Assembly (NCBI GenBank): GCA_013127575.1
Contig: CP053418.1
Span: forward strand, 1,922,001-1,986,000
Length of the DNA: 64,000 nt
DNA from: Ramlibacter terrae
GTDB taxonomy: Bacteria > Pseudomonadota > Gammaproteobacteria > Burkholderiales > Burkholderiaceae_C
Reading direction: 5' to 3'
The position numbers and the translations under genes were made by a program. Positions 1 to 64,000 of the stretch are shown one piece after another (position 1 is the stretch's first letter; every line of letters starts with the position of its first letter). Below the pieces are notes generated by a model. That model made no database searches. It was given only the letters and a program-made list of their open reading frames with translations, and was not told the origin of the DNA.

Positions 1-1224
1 GGTGAAGGCCGCCGCGATGCTCAGCGGGATCAGCATGCGCGCCATCAGCACCTGCTGGCCCAGCACCTGCCACGTGGCCTTGGACCGGGTGAGCTGGTCG
101 GTCAGCCGGGCGGACTGCTCCACGCCGAGCAGCTGGCGGTCGGTGCCCGGCTCTGGCCATCCGGTACTGGTCCATCGTTTGCTGCTGGTCGCGGCCGATG
201 ATGCGCGTGTCCAGCACGTGCAGCGACGCGAGCTTGCCGAAGTCGAAGCTGCGGTAGATCTTCAGCGGGTTCGCCGGGTCCGGCACGCGGATCGGCAGCC
301 ACTCCTGGTAGGCTGGACCGCGGCCGCACGCCGGGCCGCGAAGCTGCCGTCGTCCTCGGGATCGTGCTCGAGCGCGCCTTCGCGCCGGTGTTGTCGGCCG
401 GTCGTGGTCGTCCCACACCGCGATCATCGGCACGGTCGCATGCAGCGCCCGCAGGTCGGGGTCGGTCTTGTACTGCGCGTGGCGCTTGCGGTAGTCGTCC
501 AGCGTCTTGATCACGTGGTCGGGCTTGGAGACGCGGTCGATCGCGATCGCCAGCTGCGAGGCGTAGCCGAGCACGCCGAACTCGTAGATGTAGTCGCCCG
601 GTGCAGCGCGAAGTCGACGTCGTCGCGCCGCGCGGCGTGCGCGTACGCGTTGAAGTAGCCGGCCGGGAAGTTGGCGCACGAGAAGACCGCGAAGCGCAGC
701 TTCTGCACGTCGTTGGCGGGCAGGGTGCGCGTGCGGCCGACGTTGGACACCTCGCCGGCGAAACGAAACCGGTAGTAGTACGTCGTGCCGGGCTTCAGGT
801 CGGGCACGTCGACCTTGACGGTGTAGTCCTGGTCGGGGCCGGTGCTCACCGTGCCGTTGGCCACGGGCACGCCGAAGTTCTGGTCGAGCGCCATCTCCCA
901 TTGCAGGGAGAGCACGCCCGGTGCCGATGCCGTGACATGGGTCCACAGCATCACGCGGTCCTGCAGCGGGTCGCCGCTGGCCACGCCCATGCGGAACGCG
1001 CCGTCCGCGTTCTCGGCCGCCGTGACGAGGTCGTTGTCGCCGCCCGCGCCGGCCTCTTCGTCGCCGCCCCCACCGCCGCCGCACGCCGTGAGGCTGACGC
1101 CGGAGCCGATGCCCATCGCCATCAGGATGGCGCCGCGGATCAGGGATCGGCGCGAAACGTTCGCGTGCCGCTGCGCGGTGGCGTTGGCGATCTGGGCGAG
1201 GGAATCGGGCGGGGAAAGGGACAT
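1..1224 (-). CDS. phoD: Alkaline phosphatase D family protein, partial (3' end off window)
   Basis: Secreted metallophosphatase of the PhoD family, which releases phosphate from phosphodiesters and monoesters outside the cytoplasm. The N-terminus has a twin-arginine motif (SRRSLIRG) before a hydrophobic stretch ending in LTAC and a glycine run, so Tat export, perhaps with a lipid anchor. A fibronectin-like PhoD_N region follows, then metal-binding motifs GDYIYEFG and VWDDHD. The reading frame breaks at about 612, 399, 384, 314 and 165. The first four repair by restoring CCTGG or CCAGG (for example LH-LGDYIYEF at 612). The start at 1224 is the ATG just before the Tat peptide. The C-terminus lies beyond base 1. 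Confidence 0.85.
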
Positions 1225-1368
1225 GCGGGCTTTCGGGTACTGCGGCGCCGGCGACGCCAAGGCTCAGCGATTGAACGGCAGAGGCTTGCGCCGCACGGTC
1301 AGCGCCGTGTCTGACACGTTGTGGGAGGCGACCTACACGCGTGGCGGGGCGGGATAATCCGCCCAACC

Positions 1369-2890
1369 ATGAAGCCGAACCTCGAAGCGCTGAAGAAGAC
1401 TTTCCGCGAAGGCCGCCGCGCCGAAGCCATCACCGCGTGCGAAGCCGCGCTGGCCGACCATCCGGCCGATCGCGAGCTCCAGCGCCTGTGCGCCAACATG
1501 CAGGCCATGGTGCGCAACCACGCCCGCGCGCTCGAACTCCTGCTGCAACTGCGCGACCCGGCGCGTGAAGATCCGGAGATCCTGTTCAACATCGCCACCT
1601 GCGAGCGCGAGCTGAACGATTTTCGTGCGGCGGCCGGCCACTTCAAGATCCTCACGGAGCGCCATCCGCAGGACGTCGGCGCCGGGCGGGCTGGGCCGAG
1701 AGCAGCTTCCAGCTCGGCGCTTTCGAGGACGCGCTCACCGGTTTCGGCCGCGCGATCCAGCTGGCGCCCGAACTCGCCCGCTTGCGCGTGCTGCGCGGCG
1801 ACGCGCTGCAGGCGGTGGGCAGGCTGCCGGACGCCGCGGCCGACTACCAGGCCGCGCTGAAGCTCGCGCCCAACGACGACGCCACGCTGAAGAAGGCCAC
1901 GCTGTGCATGCTGGAAGCGGGGCAGGGCGAGCAGGCGATCGCGTTGTGCAGGGAGATCCTGAAGGTCCGCCCCGACAGCCTGACGGCCAAGCTCGGCGCC
2001 GAATGGGTCATGAGCCAGCTCGTCCCGCTCTGGCACGTGCCGATGATGAACGAGCCCGAACGCAACCGGGCCTTTCACGACGGCTGGCGTCGGCCGTGAC
2101 GCCGGAGAGCACGGTGTTCGAGATCGGCGCCGGCTCCGGCCTGCTGGCGATGATGGCGGCGCGGCTCGGCGCCCGGCAGGTCACCACCTGCGAGGCGGTG
2201 GACCTCGTCGCCGCCACCGCCGGGAAGATCGTCGCGCGCAACGGCTACGCCGACCGCGTGACGGTGCTGGCGAAGCCCTCGCAGGCGGTGCAACTCGGGG
2301 TCGACCTTCCGGAGCCGGCCGACATCCTGGTGCACGAGATCTTCTCCAGCGAACTGCTCGGCGAGCACGTGCTGCCCGCCATCGAGGACGCGCGGCGCCG
2401 GCTGCTCAAGCCCGGCGGACGCATCCTGCCTTCGAGCGCCAGCATCATGGTGGCGCTGGTGGGCGGCGATGCGCTCGGCAAGAACCTGCACGTGGGCGAG
2501 AGCTTCGGCTTCGACCGGGCGACTTCAACGCGATCCACCCGAAGCGTCGGCCGCTGTACCGCGAAGACTGGCGCCGCTGCTGCTCAGCGCCGACGTCGAG
2601 GCCTTCCGCTTCGATTTCCAGAACCAGGCCGCGTTTCCCCGGAGCGCAAGACGCTCTCCGTCACCGCGACGCAGGAGGGCCTCTGCTACGGCCTGATCCA
2701 GTGGATCCGCATCGAGCTGGGCGAGGGCGCCCGCTTCGAGAACCACCCGTCACGGCCGCGCGCCGTCTCCAACTGGCAGCACACGATCTACGGTTTCGAC
2801 GCGCCGCTGCAGGTGCGCGCCGGGCAGGTGCTGGCGGTGCAGGCGATGCACGACCGCTCGCGGCCGTGGTTCGAGCTCAGCGCCCGGTGA
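1369..2890 (+). CDS. TPR domain plus PRMT7/9-like SAM methyltransferase
   Basis: About 507 residues once repaired. The first ~230 residues are tetratricopeptide-like helical repeats (for example LFNIATCERELNDF, ALKLAPNDDATLKKA). The rest is a Rossmann methyltransferase with SAM motif I FEIGAGSGLLAMMAARLGA and a later VHEIFSSELLGE segment. That segment resembles the acidic loop of protein arginine methyltransferases of the PRMT7/PRMT9 type. The C-terminal WQHTIYGF and WFELS strands fit the PRMT barrel. Family membership is by motif only, and the substrate is unknown. Frame breaks near 1683, 2084, 2516, 2568 and 2638 all repair at CCTGG. The last bases overlap the convergent enoyl-CoA hydratase by 14 nt. 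Confidence 0.7.
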
Positions 2891-3684: not shown

Positions 3685-3725
3685 TGCTATGCTGCTGCGT
3701 CCGCACCAGTATAAGCAGCCGACCC

Positions 3726-4970
3726 GTGACCGAACTCGACCCCGCCGACCTGCAGCTGGCCGGCATCGTCCGGGCCGGCGACCGCGTGATGTGGGGCCGG
3801 GCCTGCGCCGAACCGCTGGCGCTCACGCGCGCATTGATGGCGCAGCGCGCGGCCATCGGGCGTTTCAGCGCCTTCATCGGCATTTCGCTGGCCGACACGG
3901 TGCAGCCCGCGCATGCGGATGGCGTCGACTTCGTGTCGTATTGCGGCGGCGGCCTGAACCGCGCACTGGCGGGGCGAACGTGCTCGACATCCAGCCCGCG
4001 CATTACACGCAACTGCCCGAGCTGCTCGCCCGGCAGGTCGACGTGCTGCTGTTGCAGGTGGCGCCCGCCGGCCCCGACGGCCGCCACAGCATGTCCATCG
4101 CCTGCGACTACGGTGCCGGCCATCGCCGGCGCGCGCGTGGTGATCGCCGAGGTCAACCAGCAGGCCCCTGCCACTTTCGGGCCGCACACGCTGGGCCCGG
4201 AGGACATCGACTTCTTCGTGCGCAGCGACCGCCCGCCGCTGGAACTCGCGCGCGGCAAGGCGCATCCCGACGAAGCCGCCGTCGCGCGCAACGTGGCGAG
4301 CCTCGTGCAGGACGGCGACACCATCCAGCACGGCATCGGCGCGCTGCCCGACGCCATCGTCGCCCTGCTCGCCGATCGCCGCGAGCTCGGTCTGCACACC
4401 GGGGTCATGGGCGATGCGGCGGCCGCGCTGGTGCGCGCCGGCGTGGTCACGAATGCGCGCAAGAGCATCGACACCGGCGTCACCGTCGCCGGCGTGCTGA
4501 TGGGAACGGGCGAGCTGAATGCGCTGGCCGACCGCAACCCGGCGCTGCAGTTGCGCGAGGTGCGCTACATCCATGCGCTGCGCACGCTCGCGGCCATCGA
4601 CAACTGGTCACCATCAATTCGGCGATCGAGGTGGACCTCACCGGCGGTGAACACCGAAGTGGCCGACGGCGTCTATGTCGGCGCCGTCGGCGGTGCGGTG
4701 GATTTCATCCGCGGCGCCGGCGCCGCGAGGAACGGCCGGCCGATCGTCGCGCTGCCATCGCGCACGGCCGGCAAGGGCATCGCCCGGATCGTCGCGCGAC
4801 TGAACGGCCCCGCCGGCGCCGCCCGCAGCGACGCGCCCATCATCGTCACCGAGCACGGCATCGCCGACCTGCGCGGACTCTCGCTGCGCCAGCGGGTGGA
4901 GCGGATGATCGCCGTCGCGCACCCGGAAGACCGGGACGCGCTGCGGCAGGCGGCGCGGCCGCTCTCCTAG
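3726..4970 (+). CDS. Acetyl-CoA hydrolase/4-hydroxybutyrate CoA-transferase family
   Basis: About 414 residues, GTG start. Family I CoA-transferase-like protein that moves CoA between a short acyl-CoA and a carboxylate. Diagnostic pieces are GIGALPDAIVALL, the SAIEVDL segment carrying the presumed catalytic Glu, and ITVTEHGIADLRG-like C-terminal text (seen as IIVTEHGIADLRG). Four frame changes are needed: near 3975, 4112, 4604 (restoring CCTGG gives DNLVTINSAIEV) and 4645 (restoring CCAGG gives LTGQVNTEVADG). Donor and acceptor acids cannot be told from sequence. It is divergent from the enoyl-CoA hydratase. Confidence 0.8.
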   Translation: MTELDPADLQLAGIVRAGDRVMWGRACAEPLALTRALMAQRAAIGRFSAFIGISLADTVQPAHADGVDFVSYCGGGLNRALAGRTCSTSSPRITRNCPSCSPGRSTCCCCRWRPPAPTAATACPSPATTVPAIAGARVVIAEVNQQAPATFGPHTLGPEDIDFFVRSDRPPLELARGKAHPDEAAVARNVASLVQDGDTIQHGIGALPDAIVALLADRRELGLHTGVMGDAAAALVRAGVVTNARKSIDTGVTVAGVLMGTGELNALADRNPALQLREVRYIHALRTLAAIDNWSPSIRRSRWTSPAVNTEVADGVYVGAVGGAVDFIRGAGAARNGRPIVALPSRTAGKGIARIVARLNGPAGAARSDAPIIVTEHGIADLRGLSLRQRVERMIAVAHPEDRDALRQAARPLS

Positions 4971-5006
4971 GCGCCAGCGTGCAATCCTGCACGCCGCACG
5001 CGGCCT

Positions 5007-5025
5007 GTTAGGCATTTCACCTAAC
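5007..5025. terminator. Small hairpin after CoA-transferase gene
   Basis: A perfect 6-bp stem, GTTAGG pairing with CCTAAC around a 7-nt loop, lies 37 nt after the CoA-transferase stop and 70 nt before the M48 protease start. There is no T-run, so it may be a weak terminator or a chance palindrome. Confidence 0.3.
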
Positions 5026-5094
5026 CGCCTTCACGCAGATGGAGGATGCTGCGTCTTCCGGCCCCCGCTTGAATGGGTCTCGGAGGAACCCACC

Positions 5095-5823
5095 GTGCTG
5101 CGCAAGGTTTTCGTGATGGGCGTGTCGCTCTGCCAGGCCGTGGCAGCGGCGGCTTCCGAACGCGATGCCGGGCATTCCACGCTGCACGACCGCTGCTTCT
5201 CCTCCACCCAGCGTTCCAGCGAGCTCGGCGCCGCCGACGTGCCGCTGGCCGACCGGCTGCGCAACGCGCGCGTGCCCCTTCCCCCACGCTTCCACGACGC
5301 GCTCGCCAGGCTGAAGCCCTTCGCGCACCTGCCCAAGGGCGTCAAGCCCGAGCTGGTGGGCAGCCACGCCGTGCGCAGCGCTTCCGTGCTGAGTTCCGGA
5401 ACGATCTTCGTGTCCAGCCGGCTCTGGCGCGACGAGGACGCGCTCGACCGCGAAGAGGCCGCGGCCGTCATCGCCCACGAGCTCGCGCACACGGAGCTTT
5501 CGCACGTGAAGGACAAGCTGTGCGAAGCGGTCGCGCTCTCGGGCGACGAGAGCTTGTCGCTCAACGCCGCCGCCGGCGCGGCCCACCGCGCGATCCGTGC
5601 CGGCGACGACCAGCTCGCGGTGCGCATGATGCAGGGCAACCACCAGCGCGAGCTGCAGGCCGACCGGCGCGCGGCCGAACTGCTGCGGCTCGCCGGCCTG
5701 CCGGATGCCGCCCTGCCGCGCATGCTGGTGAAGCTGGCGCAAGGCGACGGCGGCGGCCATTCCGGCACCCATCCCGCGCTCGAAACGCGCCTCGAAAAAC
5801 CGGGCGTCCGCGTCGCCCGCTGA
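5095..5823 (+). CDS. M48 family zinc metalloprotease
   Basis: 242 residues, intact. A probable signal or anchor segment (VFVMGVSLCQAVAAAAS) is followed by a gluzincin core. HELAHTELSH supplies the HExxH zinc ligands and general base, and ELQADRRAAELL supplies the downstream third ligand in the expected ExxxD-type context. M48 proteins of this short form are usually envelope proteases or chaperone-proteases (BepA/LoiP-like). The GTG start at 5095 is chosen because a GGAGG ribosome-binding site sits 7 nt upstream. It has no obvious functional link to its neighbours. Confidence 0.85.
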   Translation: MLRKVFVMGVSLCQAVAAAASERDAGHSTLHDRCFSSTQRSSELGAADVPLADRLRNARVPLPPRFHDALARLKPFAHLPKGVKPELVGSHAVRSASVLSSGTIFVSSRLWRDEDALDREEAAAVIAHELAHTELSHVKDKLCEAVALSGDESLSLNAAAGAAHRAIRAGDDQLAVRMMQGNHQRELQADRRAAELLRLAGLPDAALPRMLVKLAQGDGGGHSGTHPALETRLEKPGVRVAR

Positions 5824-5878
5824 CAGATCGGGTCCGCTCCTAGAATGCGCCATCCCCGCGCGCCGGGAGCCCCGCCCC

Positions 5879-6601
5879 ATGCCAGTTGCCCCACCGTCCG
5901 CCGAGCTCGTCGACCAGCTCGTGCTGGCCAACCGCATCCTGTACGACCACGGCGTCGTCGATGGCTGGGCCATGCCAGCGTGCGCCACGACAGCGCGCCC
6001 GGCGTGTTCCTGCTCTCGTGCAACCGGGCGCCGGGCCTGGTGCGCCGACGCGACATCACCTGCTACGACTACGACGGTGAGGCCGTGTCGGACGCGGCGG
6101 AACGCCCCTACCTCGAACGCTACATCCACGCCGAGATCTACCGCGCCCGCCCCGACGTGGTGGCCGTGGTGCACAGCCACTCCCCGAGCGTGCTGCCGTT
6201 CGCGATCACGCGCAACGCGCTGAAGCCGGTGTTCCACATGTCGGGCTTCCTCGGCGAAGGCTCCGCCCACTTCGAGATCCGCGAAGCCGGCGGCAACACC
6301 GACATGCTGATCCGCAGCACCTACGGGCGCCGCGCTGGCGCGCTCGCTGGGCGCGCACAGCTGCGTGCTGATGCGCGGCCACGGATCGACGGTGGTCGGC
6401 AGCAGCCTGCAGCAGGCGGTCTACCGCGCGATCTACACCGAGGTCAACGCGAAGCTGCAGCTCGCCGCGCAGCCGCTGGGCGAGATCACCTTCCTGAACC
6501 GGGAGGAGGCGCAGCTCTCCTCGGACATGAACGACGGGCAGATCCCGCGCTCGTGGAACCTGTGGATCCGCCGCCTCGGCAACATCGACCTGGACGCATG
6601 A
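5879..6601 (+). CDS. Class II aldolase/adducin family protein
   Basis: About 241 residues. Zinc-dependent class II aldolase-fold protein (fuculose/ribulose-phosphate aldolase relatives or decarboxylases). The zinc His pair is in VVHSHSPSVLPF and the third His is in LMRGHGSTVVG. The frame breaks near 5966 (restoring CCTGG gives DGLGHASVRHD) and again near 6325. The next gene, a TctC-type periplasmic binding protein, starts 2 nt downstream. The pair probably forms one transcript for uptake and use of an organic acid or related compound; that pairing is inference. The exact substrate is not readable. Confidence 0.8.
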
Positions 6602-6602
6602 C

Positions 6603-7572: not shown

Positions 7573-7581
7573 GCCCACAAA

Positions 7582-7603
7582 AAACCGCCCCGGAGGGCGG
7601 TTT
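7582..7603. terminator. Bidirectional rho-independent terminator
   Basis: A 9-bp perfect stem (AAACCGCCC / GGGCGGTTT) around a CGGA tetraloop. It has A-rich sequence on one side and T-rich on the other, so it can end transcription from both the TctC gene (+) and the glycine-zipper gene (-), which converge here. Confidence 0.85.
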
Positions 7604-7627
7604 CGCGTTCACGGGGCCGGGAGCGGC

Positions 7628-8110: not shown

Positions 8111-8215
8111 GCTGATTTCCTTGTGTTGGCTGGAAAGACCTGACCATACGTCCGGAGCATCCGGCGTCGACTGCGCTTGCGTCCCACTGTTGTGTCGTCC
8201 TGTGCAGACTCAACC

Positions 8216-8504: not shown

Positions 8505-8549
8505 CAGGACGCTGCCAGAATCCGGGTCCTGACGCCAACAAGAAAGCAG

Positions 8550-9077: not shown

Positions 9078-9087
9078 GCGCCGCGCC

Positions 9088-11476
9088 CTAGGGCTCGAGC
9101 TGTCCGGCGTGCAACAAGGCAGCGCGAGTCTCCTGCACCGTCTGCGCCAGCTGCGCGCGGAATCCCTGCACGTCCGCGCCGCTCGCGCACGCGTCTTCGA
9201 GCGACGCCGCCAGCGCGCTGATGCGCGCCAGGCCGCCCATGCCGGCGGAACCGCGCAGCCTGTGCGCCGCGGCGGCCATGGGGCCGGCTTCGGCCGAAGC
9301 GGCGATCTCGTCGGCGGTGCGCTGCGCGGCGTCCATGATGCTGCGCATCAGCACCAGGAACTCGGGTTCGGTGCCCAGGCTGCGCAGCGAGGCGATCTGG
9401 CGCTCTTCCAGCAGCGGGACGTCGGCGGCGGCCGGAAGCCGCGCGGCTTCCGCTTCGTCGTCGGCCATTTCCTGCGCGGTGGCTTCGGCCGGCGAATGGC
9501 GCGCGATGGCCGCGGCCAGGCGGTCCCATTCGATCGGCTTCATCAGGCACTCGTCCATGCCCGCGCGCAGGTAGAGCGACTGCTCCTGGCTCATGACGTT
9601 GGCCGTGAGCCCGATGATGGGGATGCGCCGCTGGGCGCCGGGCAGGGCGCGGATGCGGCGCGTCGCCTCGACGCCGTCCATGACGGGCATCTGCACGTCC
9701 ATCAGCACCATGTCGAAAGGCTCCTGCTGCACGCGCGCCAGCGCCTCTTCGCCGTCGTGCGCGAACACCACGTGGTGGCCGCGCGCCGTCAGCGCCAGCC
9801 GCAGGATGTCGCGGTTGATCTCGACGTCTTCGGCCACCGGGATGCGCTGCGGCGCCACCGCCTGCAGCGCCTCGGTGCCGGCGGCGGGGCGCAGGTCGGG
9901 GTCGCCGGGCTCCAGCGGAACGTCGAGCGTGAACACGCTGCCCAGGCCGCGCGTGCTGCTGGCCGCGATGCGCCCGCCCATGGCTTCGGCCAGCCGCTGG
10001 CTGATGGCAAGCCCGAGGCCGCTGCCGCCGTACTCGCGCGCGGTGCTGCGGTCGGCCTGCGTGAACGGCGTGAACAGGATGTCGAGTTTTTCGGACGGGA
10101 TGCCGATGCCCGTGTCGCGCACCTCGAAGCGGTAGCGCACGCGGCCAGTGCCGTCCGCCTCGCCGCTCACGTCGAGGGACACGCGGCCTTTGCCCGTGAA
10201 CTTGACCGCGTTGCCCGCGAGATTGAGCAGGATCTGCCGCAGTCGCGTGGGATCGCCGCGCGCCACGGCGGGCGAGCCGGGCGCCAGCCGCACCTCGAAC
10301 GCCAGGCCTTTCTCCAGCGCCATCGGGTGGATCAGCGAGCGCACCTGCTCGATCATCTCCGGCACGCGGAAGTCGATGGTCTCCAGCGCCAGCTTGCCCG
10401 TCTCGATGCGCGAGAAATCGAGGATGTCGTTGATGACGTTGACCGGTGCCGGCCCGACGCGCGCATCGCGTCCACATAGCGGCGCTGTTCGGCGGTGAGG
10501 TCCTGCACCGCCAGCAAGTCGGCCATGCCCAGCACGCCGGTCATGGGCGTGCGGATCTCGTGGCTCATGGCGGCGGGAATTCGGCGCGCGCGTCGCTCTT
10601 GCGGCGCAACTGCTCCAGCAGCCTGTCGCCCTCGGCGCGCAGCACCGCGAAGGGCAGGCTGCACAGCACGATCGCGCCCGGTACAGCTGCAGCAGCTCCA
10701 CGCGCGCGGGCATGCCGCTGTCGGCCGGCAGGATATGGAACAGCGCGCCCACGTCGCGCGCCGCCATGAACCCGCCGGTGATGGCGGCCACGGCCATGAT
10801 GGCGCTCGCGCCCGGCAGCCGGAAGTACCAGGTGCTGAGGACGGCCAGCGGGAACGACAGCAGCATCAGCGGCGGATAGAACTCCTGCCGCGTGACGGCC
10901 ACGCAGGCCGGGCGATCAGCGTGATGCCGGCGACCTGCTCGCCGATGGACATCGCGCGCTGCTGGGGGCGCGGCTCCGGCAGGCGCAGGCTCAGGAGCAT
11001 GGGCGTGAGCGACACGTACGCCAGCATCGAAGCCGGGTACCACGTGAGCCACTGCGCGCGGAACGGCATGCCGCCCTCGGCCTGGATGAAGGCGGCCGCG
11101 GCGGCGCTGGTGAGGATCGGCACGGCGCCGGCCGCCAGCAGCAGGCGCGGCAACTGCTCGCGGCCATACCGGGGGCTGCTGAAGCCGTTGCGGCCATGCA
11201 GCACGGCGACCACGGCCAGCAGTTCGATGGCGTTGCAGGCGCCGACCAGCAGGGGCTGCGGCGCCGGGCGACGAAGCGCGCCGCGGCGGCCGCCACCCAG
11301 AGCAGGGGCACGAGCACCGGCCAGTGCCGGCGCGGCGCGAACAGCAGCAGGAAGACGCCGACCGCGTTGGCGCCGCGCAATGCGGGGTTGTCGCCGTAAA
11401 GGGACGCGGGAACGGCCTGCAGCGCGAAGTACAGCGCGGCGAAGGCGGTCCAGCGGAGGAGGTCCTTGGGGGTCAC
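9088..11476 (-). CDS. Hybrid sensor histidine kinase with REC and HPt domains
   Basis: About 795 residues after repair. The N-terminal ~290 residues are multi-pass membrane helices resembling MASE1 ([15 protein letters not shown] start). HisKA follows with phospho-His in [14 protein letters not shown], and HATPase with NAVKF, DTGIGIP and GGSGLGLAI. The receiver domain has its Asp in [13 protein letters not shown]. The C-terminal HPt has its His in [10 protein letters not shown]. All four phosphorelay sites are kept, so a full phosphorelay is expected. Frame breaks lie near 11271, 10910, 10690, 10580 and 10455. GTG start chosen at 11476 at the head of the first helix. No cognate DNA-binding regulator is adjacent. 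Confidence 0.8.
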
Positions 11477-33750: not shown

Positions 33751-34699
33751 TGACGTATGCCGAAGCCGCCGTGCTGGCGGTGACGCACGAGATGGAAGCC
33801 GACGCCAACGTCGTGGTGATCGGCGAAGACGTTGGCCGGGGCGGCATCTTCGGGCAGTACAAGGGCTTGCAGCAGCGCTTCGGCGCCGAGCGCGTGATCG
33901 ACACGCCGATCAGCGAAGCCGCGATCTGGGCGCCGGCGTCGGCATGGCGCTCGCGGGCTTGCGGCCCGTCGTCGAGATGCGCGTGGTCGACTTCGCGCTG
34001 TGCGGCATGGACGAGATCGTCAACCAGGCCGCCAAGAACCGCTTCATGTTCGGCGGCCGGGGCCGCGTGCCCATGGTGGTGCGCATGCCGATCGGCATCT
34101 GGGATTCGTCGGCGGCGCAGCATTCGCAGTCGCTCGAAAGCTGGTTCGCGCACCTGCCCGGCGTGGTGGTGGTGTGCCCCGCCACGCCGCAGGACAACTA
34201 CTCCATGCTGCGCGCGGCGCTGGCCAGCGGCGACCCGGTGGTCTACATGGAACACAAGACGCTATGGGGCGTCACCGGCGAAGTCGATGCATCCGTGAAG
34301 GCGAACATCGGCGAAGCGCGCGTGGTGCGACCCGGCTTCGACGTCACCATCGTCAGCTGGAGCAAGCAGGTGCAGGCCTGCGAACAGGCCTGCGACGAAC
34401 TGGCGCAGTGGGGCATCGCGGCCGAACTGATCGACCTGCGCAGCATCTGGCCCCGGGACCGCGCGACCGTGCTCGGGTCCGCCGCCAAGACGAAGCACCT
34501 GCTGGTCGTGCACGAAGCGGTGCAGGCCGCCGGCTTCGGCGCCGAGATCGCGGCCAGCGTGGCCGAGACGGTCGGCGGTTGCAAGGTGCGGCGCCTCGGC
34601 GCGCCGCGCATTCCCGTCGGCTACGCACCGATCCCGGAAACGCAATCGCGCGTGCTGCCGGCCGACATCGCCGCCGCCGCGCGCGGGCTGGTGGGCTGA
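33741..34699 (+). CDS. TPP-dependent dehydrogenase E1 component, beta subunit
   Basis: About 320 residues. Transketolase pyrimidine-binding domain with VVVIGEDVGRGGIF and the TPP-binding Glu in ISEAAI, then a C-terminal transketolase domain (DVTIVSWSKQVQACEQA, IDLRSIWPRD). Forms an alpha2beta2 E1 with the gene just upstream. One break at 33926, where CCTGG gives AAILGAGVGMALAG. Only 8 nt separate it from the TRAP small permease, so enzyme and importer are likely co-transcribed. Confidence 0.85.
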
Positions 34700-34707
34700 A
34701 CAAGACC

Positions 34708-35228
34708 ATGTCGCAACCCGAACTGCCCGATCCCATCCCCGGCGAACCGGAGATCCATCCCGACGAGCGCACCGTGGTGCCGCTCGCCATCGAAGACTGG
34801 CTCACCGTGATCGTCATGGGGCTGCTGGCGCTGATCACCTTCGCGAACGTGCTGGTGCGCTACTTCACCAGCCAGTCGTTCGCTGGACGGAGGAGTTCTC
34901 CGTGTTCCTGATGATCGTGCTGGCGCTGGTGGCGGGCTCCGCCGCCGTGGCGCGCAACCGCATGATCCGCATCGAGTACTTCGCCGACAACGGCCCCGAA
35001 TGGCGGCAGCGCATGCTGGCCCGCTTCGGTTCGCTGATGGTGTTCGTGCTGTTCGCCATCGTCGCGGTGCTGAGCGCGCGGGTCACCTGGGACGACTTCC
35101 GTTTCGGCGAGACGTCGCCCGGCATCGGCGTGCCGCAGTGGTGGTATTCGGTGTGGCTGCCGGTGATGTCGGTGGCGATCGCCGGCCGCGCGCTGGGCCT
35201 GTTCATCCGCCGCGGAAGGCGCGCATGA
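34708..35228 (+). CDS. dctQ: TRAP transporter small permease (DctQ type)
   Basis: About 174 residues with four membrane helices (LTVIVMGLLALITFANVLVRYF, FSVFLMIVLALVAGSAAVA, LMVFVLFAIVAVLSARV, WLPVMSVAIAGRALGLF). The WTEEFS segment after helix 1 is the family signature. One break at 34884 at CCTGG. The stop overlaps the DctM start (ATGA), as is usual for TRAP operons. Confidence 0.9.
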
Positions 35229-36522
35229 TCGCCACCCTGCTGTTCGTCGCTTTCTGGCGATGCTGATGCTGGGCGTGCCGATCGGCGCGGCCCCGGGCCT
35301 GGCCGGCGCGGTCTGCATCGCCATCGCCAATTCCGAAGTGCAGTGGTTCGGCTTGCTGGCCGTGCCGCAGAACTTCTACGCCGGCCTCGGCAAGTACCCG
35401 CTGCTGGCGGTGCCGATGTTCGTGCTGGTGGGCTCGATCTTCGACCGCTCCGGGGTCGCGCTGCGGCTGGTGAACTTCGCGGTCGCGATCGTCGGCCGCG
35501 GCCCCGGCATGCTGCCGCTGGTGGCGATCGCCGTCGCCATGTTCCTCGGCGGCATCTCGGGTTCGGGCCCGGCCAACGCCGCGGCCGTCGGCGCCGTGAT
35601 GATCGCGGCCATGAGCCGCGCGGGCTACCCGCCGTCGTTCTCGGCCAGCGTGGTCGGCGCCGCCGCCGCCACCGACATCCTGATCCCGCCTTCGGTCGCC
35701 TTCATCATCTACTCGGTGCTGGTGCCCGGCGCGTCGGTGCCGGCGCTGTTCGCCGCGGGCATGATCCCCGGCATCATGGCCGGCCTGGCGCTGATGATCC
35801 CGGCGGTGTGGATGGCGCGCCGCCACAAGATGGGCCAGCTCGAAGCCTCGCTGCCGCGCCCCGCGTTCTGGCGCAGCCTGCGCGAAGCGAGCTGGGGACT
35901 GGCGGCGCCGGTGCTGATCCTCGGCGGCATGCGCGCCGGCTGGTTCACGCCGACCGAAGCCGCCGTGGTCGCCGTGTTCTACGGCCTGTTCGTCGGCATG
36001 GTGATCTACCGGACGATCAAGGTGCGCGACCTGTTCGTCATCCTGCGCGAATCGGGCGAACTGTCGGCGGTCATCCTGCTGGTGGTGGCGCTCGCCGGCA
36101 TCTTCGCGTACTCGCTCGCCACGCTCGGCGTGATCGACCCGGTGGCGCGCGCGATCACCAACTCCGGCCTCGGCGAATACGGCGTGCTGTCGCTGCTGAT
36201 CCTGCTGCTGGTCACCGTCGGCATGTTCCTCGACGGCGTGTCGATCTTCCTGATCTTCGTGCCGCTGCTGCTGCCGATCATGCAGCACTACCAATGGGAC
36301 CCGGTGTGGTTCGGCGTCATCCTCACGCTCAAGGTGGCGCTCGGCCAGTTCACCCCGCCGTTGGCCGTCAACCTGATGGTGTCCTGCCGCATTGCCAAAG
36401 TGCCGATGGAAAGCACGATCCGCTGGGTCGGCTGGATGCTGGTGTCGATGGCGCTGGTGATGGTGCTGGTCATCGCGTTCCCCGAACTGGCGCTGTGGCT
36501 GCCGCGCACGCTGGGTTACTGA
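35225..36522 (+). CDS. dctM: TRAP transporter large permease (DctM type)
   Basis: About 432 residues, roughly twelve to thirteen membrane helices. DctM landmarks are GGISGSGPANAAAVGAVMI and AAATDILIPPSVAFIIY, and QFTPPLAVNLMV near the C-terminus. It forms the Na+-driven channel with DctQ. One break near the start at 35251 (CCTGG restored gives VAFLAMLMLG). Confidence 0.9.
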
Positions 36523-36563
36523 TTCGTTTCGTTCGTTGGTTCACTAAACACTAGGAGACAGAG

Positions 36564-37596
36564 ATGAAATTCCGCCGCACCCTGCTGGGGCTGGCCATGG
36601 CCGCCACCGCCCTCGGCTTCGCCTCCACCGCCATGGCGCAGGCCGCCTACAAGGCCGAATACAAGATGTCGCTGGTGCTCGGCCCGCCGACGCCCGGGGC
36701 ATGGCCGGCAAGATCTGGTCCGACCTCGTCAAGGAACGCACGCAGGGCCGCATCAACATCAAGCTGTACCCCGGCGTCTCGCTGATCCGGGGCGACCAGA
36801 CGCGCGAGTTCAGCGCGCTGCGCCGGGCGTGATCGACATGGCCGTCGGCTCCACCATCAACTGGTCGCCGCAGGTCAAGGAGCTCAACGTCTTCTCGCTG
36901 CCGTTCCTGATGCCCGACTACGCGGCCGTCGACGCGCTGACGCAGGGTGAAGTGGGCAAGCGCCTGTTCGCCACCATCGACAAGGCCGGCGCCGTGCCGC
37001 TGGCCTGGGGGGAGAACGGCTACCGCGAGCTCACCAACAGCAAGAAGGCGATCAAGTCGCCGGCCGACCTGAAGGGCATGAAGATCCGCGTGGTGGGCTC
37101 GCCCCTGTTCTCCGACACCTTCAACGCGCTCGGCGCCAACCCGACGCAGATGAGCTGGGCCGACGCGCAGCCGGCGCTCGCGAGCGGCGCGGTCGACGGC
37201 CAGGAGAACCCGCTGTTCCTGTTCACCGTGCTGAAGATGCACACGGTCGGCCAGAAGTTCGTGACGACGTGGGGCTACGTCGCCGACCCGCTGATCTTCG
37301 TGGTCAACAAGGAGATCTGGGCTTCGTGGTCCAAGGCCGACCAGGACATCGTGCGCCAGGCCGCCATCGACGCCGGCAAGCAGGAAATCGAGCTGGCGCG
37401 CAAGGGCCTGACCGAAGCCGACAAGCCGCTGCTCAAGGACATCGCCGGCATGGGCGTGACGGTCACCAACCTGTCGCCCGCCGAGCGTGACGCCTTCGTG
37501 CAGGCGACCCGCCCGGTGTACGCCAAGTGGAAGGCCACCATCGGCGCCGACCTGGTGAACACGGCCGAGAAGGCGATCGCCGCGCGCAAGAAGTAA
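36564..37596 (+). CDS. dctP: TRAP transporter substrate-binding protein (DctP type)
   Basis: About 344 residues with signal peptide (cleavage near AMAQA). A strong AGGAG site precedes the ATG. Extracytoplasmic solute receptor with the family's ALASGAVDGQENPLF motif and the carboxylate-clamping Arg in KIRVVGSPLF. Breaks at 36695 (T lost from CCTGG gives TPWGMAGKIWS) and 36823 (A lost from CCAGG gives LRQGVIDMAV). Ligand is probably a carboxylate, perhaps the 2-oxo acid used by the upstream E1 enzyme (inference). Confidence 0.9.
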
Positions 37597-40275: not shown

Positions 40276-40363
40276 GGCAGGACGGACGCAGGAAGGCAGC
40301 GAGGCGGCCCGACCTTCGCTGTTCCCTGGCGTGCCCGAAGCGGCATGCCACCCAGCCCGCATC

Positions 40364-41556
40364 TTACGCGGACGGCGCCGGGACCTCGAACACCTGCCGC
40401 AGGTAGGCGAGGAAAGTCTCGTCCGCTGCCAGCGTCTTGCCGGGGGCGTCCGACAGCTTGGCGACCGGCTGGCCATTGGCCTCCACCAGCTTCATCACGA
40501 TGTTGAGCGGCTTCAGGCCGACGTCGTTGGTCAGGCTGGTGCCGATGCCGAAGCCCAGCTGCGTGCGGTCGCCGAAGTGGCGGTACAGCGCCACCGCCTT
40601 CTCGATCGTCAGGCCGTCGGAGAACACCAGCCGCTTGCCGTGCGCGTCGATGCGCAGCCGCGCATAGTGCGCCAGCGCCTTCTCGCCCCACGCGACGGGG
40701 TCGCCCGAGTCGTGGCGGATGCCGTCGAAGAGCTTGGCGAAGTACAGGTCGAAGTCGCGCAGGAAGGCGTCCATGCCCACCGTATCGGTCAGCGCGATGC
40801 CCGGTCGCCGCGGTATTCCTGCACCCACTCCTCCAGCGCCGCCCGCTGGAAGTCGCGCAGCCGCATGCCCAGTGCCGGAAGGTCTGCAGGTATTCGTGGC
40901 CCATGGTGCCGATGGGCACGATGCCCGTGTCGCGCGCCAGCAGCACGTTGGACGTGCCCTTGAAGAACCGCGGCACCTCGCGCACCAGCGTGGACACCAC
41001 CTCGCGCTGCCACTCGCCCGCGTAACGCCGGCGCACGCCGAAGTCGAAGAACTCGAAGGGATGGGCGAGCTGGGGCTCGCCGCCGAACGCCTTCAGCGCC
41101 TCGATCTTCTGCTGCAGGCGGCGCCGGCCTTCCTCCTGCGCCGGCGGGAAGCGGCGGAAGTAGAGCTCGTTGACGATCGCCAGCACGAAGATCTCGAAGC
41201 CCATCACGTGCACCTGCGGGCCGACGGCTTCGATCACCGGTCGTCGCCCTCGGCGCGCGCACGGATGAAGTCGCGCTGGAAAGAGAAGATCCGCAGGAAG
41301 TCCACGAAATCGCTGCGGATGAACCGCAGGCCGCCCACGTAGGCAGGTCGTCCTTCCGGAAGCACAGCGAACAGAGGTGGTCGAGCTGCGCGTTCACTTC
41401 CTCCAGCAGTCCGGCCAGCGCGAACTCCGGCGGGTTGCGGCAGACGAAGCGGTAGTGCGCCTGCGTCTCCGGATGCCGGTGCAGCATCGGCTGCCACATC
41501 GTGAACTTGTAGAGGTCGGTGTCCAGCAGGCTGGTGATGACGGGCGTGAAGGGCAT
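40364..41556 (-). CDS. pncB: Nicotinate phosphoribosyltransferase
   Basis: About 400 residues. Converts nicotinate and PRPP to nicotinate mononucleotide in NAD salvage. Landmarks: DTDLYKFTM near the N-terminus, GTMGHE (the loop with the phosphorylated His), [19 protein letters not shown] and GIGTSLTND. Breaks at 41346, 41236, 40878 and 40808 are all CCWGG sites (for instance QTFQALGMRL at 40878). Start at the ATG of [11 protein letters not shown]. It lies 14 nt downstream of the aldehyde dehydrogenase stop, same strand. Confidence 0.9.
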
Positions 41557-41570
41557 GGGACGCCGTGCGC

Positions 41571-45748
<4,178 letters not shown>

Positions 45749-49521: not shown

Positions 49522-50220
49522 GCCTTCCGGAACACGAGGTCCCAGACGCCGTGGCCCAGCCGGAGGCCGCGGTTCTCGAACTTCGTCAGCGGCCGGTAGT
49601 CCGGCCGCGGCGCATAGCCCTCCGCGGTATTTCGCAGCCGCGGCTCCGCCGACAGCACCTCCAGCATCTGCTCCGCGTAGGGCTGCCAGTCGGTCGCGCA
49701 GTGGATGTAGCCGCCGCTCGCCAGCTTCGGCAGCAGCAGCTTGTCGGGAAGGCAGGCTGCAGCAGCCGCCGCTTGTTGTGGCGCGCCTTGTGCCAAGGAT
49801 CCGGAAAGAACAGGTGCAGCCCCGCCCGTGGCGCCGTCGGCCAGCATGTGGTCGAGCACCTCCACGGCGTCGTGCTGCACGATGCGGATGTTGGTCAGCC
49901 CCAGTTCGCCCACGCGCTTGAGCAGCGCGCCGACGCCCGGCGTGTGCACCTCGCAGCACAGGAAGTTCGTCCCGGGCATCACGCCCGCGATGTGCGCCGT
50001 GGCTTCCCCCATGCCGAAGCCGATCTCCAGCACGGTGGGCGCATTGCGGCCGAAGAGCGCCGCGAGGTCCACCGGCTGCGGCTGGTAGGGCACCGGTACT
50101 GCGGGCCCAGCGTTTCGAGCGCGCGCGCCGGCCGACGGTGGTGCGGCCGGTGCGCAGGACGAAGCTGCGGATCGGGCGGCGGGGCGGCACGCTCTCGGGC
50201 GTGTTCTCGGGGTCGGTCAT
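49518..50220 (-). CDS. trmB: tRNA (guanine-N7-)-methyltransferase
   Basis: About 233 residues. Makes m7G46 in tRNAs. [16 protein letters not shown] is SAM motif I, then [31 protein letters not shown] (family signature), [14 protein letters not shown] and [17 protein letters not shown]. Breaks at 50136 and 50095 are CCWGG (repair gives [22 protein letters not shown]); others near 49830 and 49750. The start overlaps the gluQ stop as ATGA, so the two tRNA genes are coupled. Confidence 0.9.
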
Positions 50221-51088
50221 GCCCCGATTGTCCCCCACGCGCGCGCACCGCTGCCGCCAGCCAGTCGGGTTGCGACGGCGAGGGCGGCACGTCCAGTCCG
50301 AGCACGGCCGAGGCCGCCTGCAGCGCACGCAGCGGATCGTCCAGCACCAGCGGCGTGGCGCCGTTCTGCTTGGACAGCTTCTCGCCGTTGGGACCGAGCA
50401 CCAGCGGCGTGTGCAGGTAGGCAGGCTGCGGCAGGCCCGGGGCGCGTTGCAGCAGCAGTTGCCGCGCGGTGTTGTCGGTCAGGTCTTCGCCGCGCACCAC
50501 GTGCGTGATGCGCTGGTCGGCGTCGTCGACCACCACGGCCAGCTGGTAGGCGAACAGGCCGTCGGCGCGCTTCAGCACGAAGTCCCCGACCTCCTCGGCC
50601 ACGTCCTGCGACTGCGCGCCCAGCCGGCGATCGGTCCACGCGACCACGCCGGCCGGCACGCGAAAGCGCCAGGCGCGCGCTGCGCGGCCGTGCAGGCCAT
50701 CGCGGCAGGTGCCGGGATAGACCAGCTCGCCGTGGCGCGGCTTCTCGCGTCCCGCCGCATGCAGCGCCTGCGCGATGTCCTTGCGCGAACAGGCGCACGG
50801 GTAGGCGGCGTCGCGCGCGGCCAGCCGCTGCAGCGCCGCCTCGTAAAGGGTCTCGCGCTGCGATTGCCACTGCGGCGGTTCGTGCGGCCGCAAGCCGCAG
50901 GCGGCGAGCTGCCGCAGGATCTCCCGGTCGGCGCCCGCCACGCAGCGCGGCTGGTCGACGTCTTCGATGCGCACCAGCCACTGGCCACCGTGCGCGCGGG
51001 CGTCGAGCCAGCTGGCCAGCGCCGCCACCAGCGAGCCCGCGTGCAGCGGCCCGGTGGGCGAGGGCGCGAAGCGTCCGCGGTAGGCCAT
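50217..51088 (-). CDS. gluQ: Glutamyl-Q tRNA(Asp) synthetase
   Basis: About 290 residues. Truncated GluRS paralogue that attaches glutamate to queuosine 34 of tRNA-Asp. [18 protein letters not shown] carries the HIGH-like motif, EKLSKQNGA the KMSKS-like motif, and the zinc-type segment CACSRKDI follows. It lacks an anticodon-binding domain, as expected. One small frame change near 50250 leads to the end RAWGTIGA. Upstream partner of trmB. Confidence 0.9.
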
Positions 51089-55482: not shown

Positions 55483-56380
<898 letters not shown>

Positions 56381-56384
<4 letters not shown>

Positions 56385-59448: not shown

Positions 59449-59456
59449 TCTAGTTT

Positions 59457-60206
59457 TCAGCTCAGCCGTGGAACAGGGGCGGGCAGCAGGTCGGCGTGCA
59501 ATGCCTCACGCTCGTCGAAGACAAAACAGCTCCCGTGGAAGTGGGCGCCGCCGGTTTCCTCGAAGTACTTCAGGATGCCGCCTTCCAGTTGCCACACGGC
59601 GTCCGGCCCGCCTCGCGCATCACCAGCGCCGCCTTCTCGCAGCGGATGCCGCCCGTGCAGAAGCTCACCACCGTCTTGCCTTGCAGCTCGGACAGGTGTT
59701 CCTGCAGGGCTTCGGGAAAGTCGCTGAACTTGCCGAGGCGCGCCAGTCGATCGCGCCTTCGAAGGTGCCGTAATCCACCTCGAAGGCGTTGCGCGTGTCG
59801 AGCGTCACCACCGGCCGGCCGGCGTCGTCGTGCCCCCTGGTCCAGCCAGCGCCTGAGCGTCGGCGCGTCCAGCGCGGGCGCGCGGCCCTGCCGCGGCTGG
59901 ATCGCCGGATGGTTCATGCGGATGATCTCCGCCTTGACCTTCACGCGCAGCCGGCGGAAGGGCGTGGCGGCGGACCAGCTTTCCCGGCCTGCAGCGGCGC
60001 GAAGCGTTCGTCGCCGCGCAGTCCGGCGAGGAAGGTGCGCACGTTCGCCTCGGCGCCGGCCACGACCGGTTGATGCCTTCCTCGGCCAGCAGGATCGTTC
60101 CGAGCAGCCCCAGCGCCTGCGCGCGCTCGTGCAGCCGATCGCGCAGCGCGTGCGCATCGGGCAGCGCGACGAAAAGGTAGGCGGAAACGTTCAGGACATT
60201 GTTCAC
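59457..60206 (-). CDS. trhO: tRNA uridine(34) hydroxylase (rhodanese fold)
   Basis: About 249 residues. YceA/TrhO family, which makes 5-hydroxyuridine at tRNA position 34. N-terminal ferredoxin-like domain ([13 protein letters not shown]), then a rhodanese domain with [18 protein letters not shown] and active Cys in [12 protein letters not shown], ending [20 protein letters not shown]. Breaks at 60075, 59984, 59829 and 59609 all fit CCWGG (for example LEEGINLVVAG at 60075). Divergent from dnaE with 52 nt between. Confidence 0.85.
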
Positions 60207-60258
60207 GGACCCGCGATTCTAGGAAAGTCAAGGGCCGCGCGTTTTCTACAATGCAGCC

Positions 60259-63200
60259 ATGTTCGTCCACCTGCGCCTGCACACCGAGTTCTCCGTCGTC
60301 GACGGCACCAACCGCATCGACGAGATCGTGAAGGCCGCGGCCGCCGACGCGCAGCCCGCGCTGGGCATCAGCGACCTGAACAACCTGTACGGCGGCATCA
60401 AGTTCTACAAGGAGGCCCGCGGCAAGGGCCTCAAGCCCATCGTGGGTTGCGAGGTGATGCTGCAGGGCGTCGGCCCCGATCCGGTGGCGATCTCGCGCGT
60501 GGTGCTGCTGGTGCAGAACCACGCCGGCTACCTCAACCTGTGCGAACTGCTGGCCCGCGCGTGGACGCGCAACGTGGTGCGCGCGCAGGCGGTCTGCAAG
60601 CTGGAGTGGCTGCAGGAGCTGAACGAAGGCCTGCTGATGCTCGCTGGCGCGCAGGCCGGCCCGGTGGGCCAGGCCTTGCTGCAAGGGGATGAAAGCCGCG
60701 CCGCCGAGATCGCGCTGCAGCTCGCCGGCATCTTCCCGCACCGCTTCTACATCGAGCTGCAGCGCGCGGGGCGCAACGACGACGAGGCGCATGTCGCCGC
60801 CGCCGTGCAACTGGCCGCGCGCCTGAGCCTGCCGGTGGTGGCGACGCACCCGGTGCAGTTCACCAAGGAAGACGACTACGAGGCGCACGAGGCGCGCGTC
60901 TGCATCTCCGACGGCGAGATCTGGGCAACCCGCGGCGGGTGCGGCGCTTCACACGCGAGCAGTACTTCAAGACGGCGGCGCAGATGGAGGCGCTGTTCGA
61001 CGACCTGCCCTCGGCCATCGCGAACACGGCGGAGATCGCGCGCCGCTGCAACCTGGTGCTGCAACTGGGCAAGCCGCGTCTGCCGAACTTTCCCACGCCC
61101 AACGGCATGCCGATCGAAGAGTACTTCCGCTTCGCATCGCACGAGGGCCTGGACGAGCGGCTGCTGCAGCTCTACCCCAAGGAAGCCGAGCGCGAGGCGA
61201 ACCGCCAGCGCTACGTCGACCGGCTCGAGTTCGAGATCGGCACCATCCTGAAGATGGGGTTCCCCGGCTACTTCCTGATCGTGGGCGACTTCATCAACTG
61301 GGCCAAGCAGAACGACTGCCCGGTGGGGCCGGGCCGGGGCTCCGGCGCGGGCTCGCTGGTGGCGTATGCGCTGAAGATCACCGACCTCGACCCGCTGCAG
61401 TACAACCTGCTGTTCGAGCGCTTCCTGAACCCGGAACGCGTGTCGATGCCCGACTTCGACATCGACTTCTGCCGGGGCAACCGCGACCGCGTGATCGAGT
61501 ACGTGAAGGACAAGTACGGCCGCGATGCCGTCAGCCAGATCGCGACCTTCGGCACAATGGCGGCGCGCGCGGCGGTGCGCGACGTCGGCCGCGTGCTGGA
61601 CATGAGCTACACGTTCTGCGACGGCATCAGCAAGCTGATCCCGAACAAGCCGGGCACGCACATCACGATCGCCGATGCGCTGAAGCAGGAGCCGATCTGG
61701 CGGAGCGCTACCAGCGCGAGGACGAGGTCAAGACGCTGCTCGACCTGGCGCAGAAGCTCGAGGGCTTGACCCGCAACGTCGGCATGCACGCCGGCGGCGT
61801 GCTGATCGCGCCGGGCAAGCTGACCGACTTCACGCCGCTGTACCAGCAGCCGGGCAGCGAGTCGGCCGTGAGCCAGTACGACAAGGACGACGTGGAGGCC
61901 GCGGGCCTGGTCAAGTTCGACTTCCCGGGCTTGGCCACGTTGACGATCCCGGAGCTGGCCCGCAAGTTCATCGTCGGCCGCCACAAGGGCCGGGGAGAAC
62001 TTCACCTTCGAGGCCATCCCGCTCGACGACGCCGCCACCTACAAGCTCTTCTCCGACGGCAAGACCGAGGCGGTGTTCCAGTTCGAATCGCGCGGCATGC
62101 AGGGCATGTTGCGCGACGCCCGCCCGACGCGGCTGGAAGACCTGATCGCGCTGAACGCGCTGTACCGCCCGGGCCCGATGGACCTGATCCCCAGCTTCGT
62201 CGCCCGCAAGCACGGGCGCGAGGACGTCGAGTATCCGCATCCCGCGGTGGCGCAGATGCTCGGCGAGACCTACGGGATCATGGTCTACCAGAGCAGGTGA
62301 TGCAGACCGCGCAGATCCGGGCGGCTACTCGCTCGGCGGCGCCGACCTGCTGCGCCGCGCGATGGGCAAGAAGAAGGCCGAGGAGATGGCCGAGCACCGG
62401 GAGCGCTTCCGCGCCGGCGCCGACAAGACCCACGGCATCCCGCAGGCCAAGGCCGACGAGATCTTCGACCTGATGGAGAAGTTCGCGGGCTACGGCTTCA
62501 ACAAGTCGCACGCCGCCGCGTACTCGCTGCTGGCGTACCACACGGGGTGGCTCAAGGTCCACTACACGGCGGAGTTCTTCTGCGCCAACATGACCGTGGA
62601 AATGGACAACACCGACAAGCTCAAGGTGTTGTTCGAGGACGCGCAGAAGAACTTCGGCATCACCTTCGAGCCCCCGGACATCAACCGCGGCACCTACCGC
62701 TTCGAGCCGATCTCGGACAAGGCCGTGCGCTACGGGCTCGGCGCCGTCAAGGGCACGGGCCAGCTGGCGGTGGAGGCGATCGTCGCCGGCCGCGCCGACG
62801 GCCCGTTCACGAGCCTGTACGACTTCTGCTGCCGCGTCGACCGCACCCGCATCAACAAGCGCACGGTCGAAGCGCTGATCAAGGCCGGCGCCTTCGACAA
62901 CCTGCACCGCAACCGCGCGGAGCTGGTGGCTTCCATCGACCGCGCCTTCGACTTCGCCAACGCCTGCGAGGCCAACGCCAACCGGGGCGGCCTGTTCGAC
63001 ATGGGCGACGACTCGCACGGCGCCAGCACGCAGGAGCCCGACCTCGGTCGAGGCCACGCCCGGGGGTGAAGGAGCGGCTGACGCACGAGAAGACGGCCAT
63101 CGGCTTCTATCTCTCGGGCCACCTGTTCGACGAGGTGGAGCGCGAGGTGCGCCGCTTCTGCAAGCGCCGCATCGACGAACTGGTCGACAGCCGCGAGCCG

Positions 63201-63717
63201 ATGCTGCTGGCCGGCATCGTCACCGACCTGCGCTTCATCAACGGCCAGCGCGGCAAGCTCGCGCTGTTCAAGCTCGACGACAAGACCGACGTGATCGAGG
63301 CGGCGGCCGACGAGTCGGTGTTCGGCCCGCACCGCGGCTGGTTCAAGGACGACGAGCTGGTGGTCATGATGGCCAAGCTGCAGCCGGACCGTTTCTCGGG
63401 CGGCTTCCGCCTGAACGTGCAGCAGCTCTGGGACCTGGCGACGGCGCGCTGCCGCTTCGGCAAGTACCGGAGGTCGCCGTCAACGGAACGGCGCCGGACA
63501 TCCCGCGGCTGCTGCGCGAGTTCCCGCCCAAGAAAGAGATGTCGGAGCAGGGCGAACTGGTGCGCGGTCTGGGCGTGCGGCTGCTGGTGGAGCGCGACGC
63601 GGCGCGGGTCGCGCTGCAGCTGGGCGAGCAGGCCCGGTTCTTCCCGAGCGATGCGGCGCTGGCCAGCTGGCTGGCGCAAGCGCACGGGGGAAGGCGCAGA
63701 TCGTTTACGAGGGGTGA
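60259..63717 (+). CDS. dnaE: DNA polymerase III alpha subunit
   Basis: About 1153 residues. Replicative polymerase. PHP domain from the start ([14 protein letters not shown]), the catalytic palm with [16 protein letters not shown] and [16 protein letters not shown] (two catalytic Asp), finger segment [18 protein letters not shown], and a C-terminal OB domain ([20 protein letters not shown]). Breaks at 60926, 62294, 62311 and 63470 repair as CCWGG; others at 61695, 61994, 63047 and 63065. It ends directly against the convergent rhodanese gene. Confidence 0.95.
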
Positions 63718-64000
63718 CTACTGCACCGCGGCCGCGTCGAACTTCATCCCCGACGTGCGCCACTCCGGGAAGCCGCCGCGGAACCAGTTGACGTTCTTGT
63801 AGCCGGCCTTGAGCGCGGCCTGGCTCGCCTTGAAGCTCTTCCAGCACTCGGGGCCGTTGCACGCGAAGATCAGTTCCGCGTTGCGGTCGCTCCCCAGCTG
63901 CGCCACGTCGAACTTGTCGAGCGCCGCGTCGAAGTCGGCTTCCTTCGGGCTCTTCTCGTGGTACGGCACCAGCTTGGCGCCGGGCACGTGGCCCGCCTTG
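63718..64000 (-). CDS. Rhodanese-like domain protein, partial (5' end off window)
   Basis: The visible C-terminal ~94 residues of a rhodanese fold. GHVPGAKLVPYH is the strand after the first helix, FACNGPECWKSFKAS carries the active-site Cys loop, and WFRGGFPEWRTSG is the closing strand. Sulfurtransferase or thiol-redox role; a CNGPxC loop is found in secreted rhodaneses, but the signal region is outside the window. The stop (TAG) abuts the dnaE stop. Confidence 0.8.
   Translation of the reverse strand, partial: KAGHVPGAKLVPYHEKSPKEADFDAALDKFDVAQLGSDRNAELIFACNGPECWKSFKASQAALKAGYKNVNWFRGGFPEWRTSGMKFDAAAVQ

Follow-up and report, generated by a model that had tools for sequence, protein, structure and literature searches.

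This stretch of Ramlibacter terrae DNA raises the question of why so many of its conserved reading frames are broken, including those of genes for the replicative DNA polymerase and for a tRNA ligase. The window, that is, the whole stretch of 64,000 nucleotides that was analysed (G000:C1:1922001-1986000), is part of a single-contig genome of 5.28 Mb with a guanine-cytosine (GC) content of about 70% and an estimated completeness of only 63.72%. The breaks concentrate on CCWGG (W denotes A or T and S, below, C or G), the motif on which Dcm, EcoRII, and MvaI act. It is concluded with high confidence that most of them are not mutations and represent consensus errors, presumably left uncorrected at CCWGG sites that very probably bear Dcm-type methylation.

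Comparison with Related Genomes

Five genomes of the same genus, picked by their best DNA match to the window, served for comparison. The stretches matched by the window were fetched, and their open reading frames were aligned to it by a codon-aware aligner which permits frameshifts. Admitted frames were those whose mismatches against the R. terrae genome concentrate on third codon positions, and an event had to be flanked on each side by at least 8 aligned steps with 5 identical residues within 10. This filter removed 71 of the 343 raw pairwise events of window and flanks and left 272, of which 217 lie in the window. In total, the codon alignment covered 41,774 of the 64,000 window bases with one or more relatives, and 34,173 bases of the flanks, which span 80 kb. 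As a calibration, 64 single-base deletions were introduced at random into a relative; 61 were recovered, and 3 of the 65 resulting clusters touched CCWGG wrongly. Plain counting of blastn gaps was dropped in favor of this procedure, as compensating gaps made the counts too noisy.

Association of Frame Breaks with CCWGG

The aligned portion of the window contains 90 clusters of breaks: 43 are unanimous against at least two relatives, 31 come from one relative, and 16 are split among the aligned relatives. By a strict criterion, namely, CCWGG in a relative exactly at the gap, 46 of the 90 (51%) lie on the motif, as compared to 4.87 on average, and never more than 13, in 2000 random relocations. 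When CCWGG is required in the majority of relatives, 42 of 90 breaks qualify (null mean 3.3, maximum 10, in 2000 relocations). Among the unanimous breaks only, CCWGG is present in at least one relative at 29 of 43 and in the majority at 25 of 43. In the flanks, 20 of 47 clusters have CCWGG at the gap in a relative. A remnant of the motif (CCGG, CWGG, or CCWG) is visible in the R. terrae sequence at 20 of the 44 other window clusters, and the broad criterion that takes in this class covers 66 of 90 breaks (73%). An unbiased scan, limited to 5-mers with at least 7 events in the window or at least 4 in the flanks, puts CCAGG/CCTGG at the top by fold enrichment in both, with 93 of 217 pairwise events (64-fold) and 23 of 55 (70-fold), respectively.

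Controls on motifs were counted pairwise over window and flanks, where one site may count against several relatives. Frameshifts occur at 120 of 974 relative CCWGG sites here and at 0 of 1323 between relatives, whereas CCWGG is kept at 125 of 974 versus 570 of 1323, the mean identity being similar (79.9 versus 80.3%). In the window alone, 86 of 696 such sites are kept and 95 are frameshifted. CCSGG is near-normal (299 of 690 kept and 10 of 690 frameshifted), and nine other 5-mer motifs of like composition are frameshifted at 0.5-4.6% of sites, as compared to 12.3% for CCWGG. Overall, the frameshift density is 2.23 per kb here and 0.21 per kb between relatives. The relatives without a close Dcm-like enzyme show no CCWGG frameshift pattern, a comparison which does not isolate the enzyme, given that sequencing platforms may differ. 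A search of relatives with PF00145 detected only a distant match, in G011; G022, G017, G005, and G002 gave none.

Forms of Error at CCWGG

Among the 46 window breaks at CCWGG, the central base is lost in 23, a G in 10, and a C in 5; the remainder are 4 insertions, 2 two-base losses, and 2 ambiguous cases. Central-base loss is not dominant among the 20 flank breaks at the motif (5, versus 5 for G). A further class, absent from the original prediction made on this DNA by inspection, is the reading of central W as S. It is found at 93 of 871 pairwise aligned CCWGG sites versus 13 of 1347 in controls, and 90 of the 93 changes are nonsynonymous. CCTGG becomes CCCGG at 53 of 556 sites (51 nonsynonymous; controls 5 of 902), and CCAGG becomes CCGGG at 40 of 315 (39 nonsynonymous; controls 8 of 445). 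By codon phase, the changes at CCTGG number 36, 15, and 2, and the sites themselves 406, 138, and 12. The W-to-S changes ignore codon phase and are therefore to be regarded as error, not evolution. Three relatives examined as a control gave 16 W-to-S changes and 0 frameshifts among 907 distinct CCWGG sites, so that a small part of this class is natural.

A census of distinct positions allows the extent of miscalling to be estimated. The window has 467 positions with CCWGG in some relative, of which 45 are intact, 48 frameshifted, 30 changed from W to S, 338 otherwise substituted, and 6 in codon gaps; the 255 such positions of the flanks comprise 33, 22, 29, 170, and 1, in the same order. With the otherwise-substituted sites set aside, 78 of 123 window positions (63%) and 51 of 84 flank positions (61%) count as miscalled. 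Judging from these alignments, roughly 60% of the recognizable true CCWGG sites appear to have been miscalled. At the 59 window sites that are CCWGG in all aligned relatives (at least two), there are 22 frameshifts, 7 W-to-S changes, 9 intact motifs, and 21 other substitutions. The three relatives treated identically (107 sites) yield 0, 1, 80, and 26, respectively.

The original prediction had held that frame breaks cluster on CCWGG because Dcm-like methylation was read as indels, and this interpretation is supported. Its roughly 60-70 breaks, restored by hand over 64 kb, compare with 90 clusters in the 41,774 aligned bases. The enrichment is beyond doubt, whereas the wording that the great majority fall on CCAGG or CCTGG was too strong, given the shares of 51% and 73% above. 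All the indel forms it described (central A or T lost, C lost, G lost, and an extra base) recur among the 46 breaks. Of the 21 positions it listed, 19 have the quoted sequence, on either strand, within 6 bases, such 4-mers being common, and 16 have a break within 20 bases. Positions 45733 and 25380 are aligned without a break, and 58502, 58248, and 12775 fall outside the aligned regions. Of the 16 recovered positions, 12 have one or more relatives with CCWGG at the gap; at 42557, 60075, 63470, and 20303, no relative has it. Two of the checks which it had proposed, the tabulation of indels against relatives and a genome search for a Dcm-type cytosine methyltransferase, both came out in its favor, the latter as described next.

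A Candidate Methylation and Restriction Island

The candidate methylation locus lies beyond the window, at about 5.3-8.2 kb of G000:C1. The search of the genome for C5 methyltransferases gave a single match. This protein shares 59% identity with E. coli K-12 Dcm, and both contain the block TLSARYYKDGxEIL. It passes the TIGR00675 dcm superfamily model (319.4 bits, cut-off 100.65) and PF00145 (280.7 bits, cut-off 22), and its closest matches among genome contigs belong to Burkholderiales, Comamonadaceae, and Betaproteobacteria records. From this resemblance, the enzyme is presumed to be active and specific for CCWGG. It is adjoined, as in E. coli, by Vsr (TIGR00632, 145.9 bits, cut-off 97.85). 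This pairing is common: among 84 methyltransferase loci, 35 have Vsr, 3 the nuclease described below, 3 both, and 43 neither, in a count which takes in the present locus, the two loci of the same-genus genome G007 twice, and many loci short of flank.

Unlike the E. coli pair, the present one stands beside a nuclease of the MvaI/BcnI family. This protein of 444 residues matches PF15515 over its C-terminal 315 residues (129.5 bits, cut-off 25). A profile of six homologues found R.MvaI as the sole solved relative in the PDB (2oa9/2oaa, E 4e-9); the nuclease sequence alone as query retrieved no relative of solved structure. It differs from R.MvaI in the roughly 180 residues which precede the matching part. 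EcoRII and MvaI are described as neoschizomers and BcnI as cutting CC^SGG (PMC4081073). A further neighbour resembles type IV restriction enzymes in a profile comparison (E 4e-16) and has an HNH-like C-terminus by eye. The island thus runs, at about 3721-8188 of G000:C1, through the type IV-like protein, the R.MvaI-like nuclease, Vsr, and the Dcm-like C5 methyltransferase, the frames of the last three being uninterrupted. It follows the apparent end of gyrB, named by eye from the translation. Its GC content dips to 0.55-0.60, as compared to about 0.70 for the genome, which suggests that the island was acquired, perhaps recently.

Origin of the Breaks

The proposed route from methylation to broken genes is as follows. 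The Dcm-like enzyme would very probably methylate the inner C of CCWGG, and in nanopore reads of native DNA the current would be altered at the methylated site. The basecaller would then omit the central A or T, omit a C or G, insert an extra base, or call the central A or T as C or G. In an assembly presumably not corrected for such errors, gene breakage and most of the apparent scarcity of CCWGG would follow. Both the nanopore origin of the reads and 5-methylcytosine (5mC) at CCWGG are inferred. A precedent exists in Wick, Judd and Holt (2019): with default models, the Oxford Nanopore basecallers all performed poorly on Dcm motifs, and in K. pneumoniae about 70% of consensus errors lay in these motifs, at about 0.4% error (PMC6591954). 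The frame breaks found here at CCWGG (51%, strict) or at CCWGG and its remnants (73%, broad) resemble these errors at the CCAGG/CCTGG of native DNA. The K. pneumoniae study had a reference, whereas the present case concerns a GC-rich member of the Burkholderiales without one, is drawn from relatives, and includes a measured W-to-S class.

Several observations sit uneasily with methylation as the common cause. The remnant class is only about twice chance (20 seen, versus 9.7 on average and at most 20 over 1000 relocation trials). Neither CCWGG nor a remnant accompanies 24 of the 90 window breaks, of which 21 are fully unexplained and 3 attributable only to homopolymers (runs of 4 or more), and 19 of 47 flank breaks are likewise unexplained. 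A second error motif was sought among the 71 non-CCWGG clusters of window and flanks, and none stood out. GGWCC shows a mild excess of frameshifts (17 of 367, a flank-tolerant count) but is at the gap in only 2 of the 71. A one-mismatch neighbour of CCWGG is at the gap in a relative in 38 of them, versus 25% of single positions. The methyltransferase, for its part, is without most of the N-terminal extension present in E. coli Dcm and, at 418.9 bits, falls short of the NF007772/PRK10458 Dcm model (cut-off 710). The breaks outside CCWGG-type contexts would suit ordinary nanopore errors, caused by homopolymers and GC-rich sequence with methylation playing no role. This account is very improbable, as motifs of like composition are far less often frameshifted than CCWGG and the most frequent loss in the window is that of a lone central A or T (23 of 46). 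Only a little more room is left for a modification of CCWGG other than 5mC, e.g., N4-methylcytosine from another enzyme. The methyltransferase of the MvaI system is an N4 enzyme, which counts for such a modification; here, unlike in that system, the nuclease adjoins a methyltransferase of the C5 family. Moreover, a search of the genome with PF01555 (N6/N4) gave no match, other N-methyltransferase families being outside that search.

A decaying genome with real frameshift mutations would account for the low estimated completeness and for broken frames in window and flanks alike; low completeness would also be the product of miscalled frames. Identities of the broken genes were taken from the relatives' intact open frames via family models. 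The gene dnaE, for DNA polymerase III alpha (60193..63711, plus strand), has 10 breaks, of which 7 are unanimous and 6 have a relative's CCWGG at the gap; the relative's intact frame scores 1436 bits to NF004226 (cut-off 1002). The alanine-tRNA ligase gene alaS (43097..45746, plus strand; TIGR00344) has 9 breaks, 7 unanimous and 6 with CCWGG. Both products are essential, as the original prediction had argued for many of the breaks, and the breaks therefore cannot all be real; mutation as their source is not credible. Since the breaks also concentrate on one 5-mer and the W-to-S changes are phase-blind, decay is extremely improbable. Real hypermutation at methylated CCWGG, through deamination of 5mC or Vsr repair, has a negligible probability. 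Vsr and a Dcm-like enzyme are indeed encoded, and CCAGG shows about twice the control rate of G-to-A at position 4 (14 of 315 versus 10 of 445). There is, however, no excess of C-to-T at position 2 of CCTGG (5 of 556 versus 7 of 902), and loss of the central base is not a product of deamination.

Scarcity of CCWGG and Possible Avoidance

The window retains 120 CCWGG sites, or 1.88 per kb, as compared to 5.15-7.33 per kb in the relatives' stretches. All 8 of the separate 20-kb samples taken from this genome have an observed/expected ratio of 0.36-0.58, as compared to 0.74-1.04 in 16 samples from 14 relatives. By our own arithmetic, correction for miscalls makes the 120 sites stand for about 330, a density of 5.1 per kb and thus about the lowest seen in the relatives, and most of the apparent deficit is thus estimated to be miscalling. 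In this regard, G007, a genome of 100% completeness, carries two Dcm-like homologues (G007:C1, about 3147843-3148865 and 2171246-2172331), each with Vsr and in a stretch of GC 0.59-0.60. Its CCWGG ratio is 0.80-0.94, without a deficit of the size seen here. A Dcm-like enzyme alone is therefore not the cause of the deficit, which fits an artefact of how the present genome was sequenced.

That the whole deficit is genuine avoidance was rejected, as the W-to-S changes are phase-blind and nonsynonymous. The opposite proposal, that all excess substitutions are miscalls, is not upheld at CCTGG, where changes respect codon phase: G-to-C at position 4 is synonymous in 95 of 98 cases and C-to-G at position 2 in 39 of 45. 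At CCAGG, the same two changes are about doubled (20 of 315 versus 14 of 445 and 13 of 315 versus 9 of 445) and are nonsynonymous in 11 of 20 and 13 of 13, so some of these may be miscalls. At distinct C-Leu-G positions of window and flanks, frameshifted sites being left out, R. terrae has CTC 106 times versus CTG 46 times plus 36 probably miscalled CCG, whereas the relatives have CTC 63 and CTG 234 times. Synonymous departures from CCTGG, CTG becoming CTC in this context, are thus more frequent than in controls. Where R. terrae has CTC at these positions, relatives carry CTG at 62% and CTC at 24%. The control values of 58% and 19% are similar, and the CTC codons therefore look genuine. A limited degree of genuine avoidance may exist alongside the artefact but is not established. 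Tentatively, the codon counts might mean that the lineage selects synonymous codons that do not form CCWGG, as would be expected under a long-resident restriction system for this motif, a reading which is on balance doubtful. A published survey treats under-representation of restriction sites as a possible sign of such residence (PMC4687349). Position 1 of CCWGG does not show an increased rate of loss (0.316 versus 0.320), and the GC dip of the island suggests recent arrival, both of which count against true avoidance.

The artefact itself is already published (PMC6591954), and the value of the present case is as a warning. Such assemblies exaggerate the number of pseudogenes, probably lower the estimated completeness, and can mimic avoidance of restriction sites. 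Conversely, motif-specific breakage of conserved genes can hint at the methylation motif of a strain without raw signal.

Other Broken Genes of the Window

Several further genes of the window are affected. Those for a succinate-semialdehyde dehydrogenase family protein (41576..43053, minus strand; TIGR01780 over cut-off) and for part of a PhoD-like phosphatase (6..1345, minus; PF09423) have 5 and 6 breaks, 3 and 4 with CCWGG, each seen against one relative only. The same holds for a hybrid sensor histidine kinase (9117..11470, minus; 4 breaks, 2 with CCWGG), which reached no cut-off among the best 25 of 86 families. The gene trmB, for the tRNA m7G46 methyltransferase (49523..50235, minus; TIGR00091), has 4 breaks, 2 unanimous and 3 with CCWGG. 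A TrhO-type sulfurtransferase (59513..60228, minus; NF003703, NF001133) has 6, of which 3 are unanimous, 1 has CCWGG, and one falls in the overlap with the dnaE alignment. On the plus strand, a TRAP transporter large permease with an upstream part of the relative's open frame (34430..36516; TIGR00786) has 2 breaks, both unanimous and both with CCWGG, and a DctP TRAP solute-binding protein (36460..37587; TIGR00787) has 4, with 1 unanimous and 2 at CCWGG. Nicotinate phosphoribosyltransferase (40390..41559, minus; TIGR01514) is interrupted by 4 breaks, 3 unanimous and 2 with CCWGG. Close to this last gene, an nhaA-I riboswitch match was found at window positions 40300-40353 on the minus strand; the gene that immediately follows it downstream (about 39023-40251, same strand; PF07399) encodes a putative Na+/H+ antiporter.

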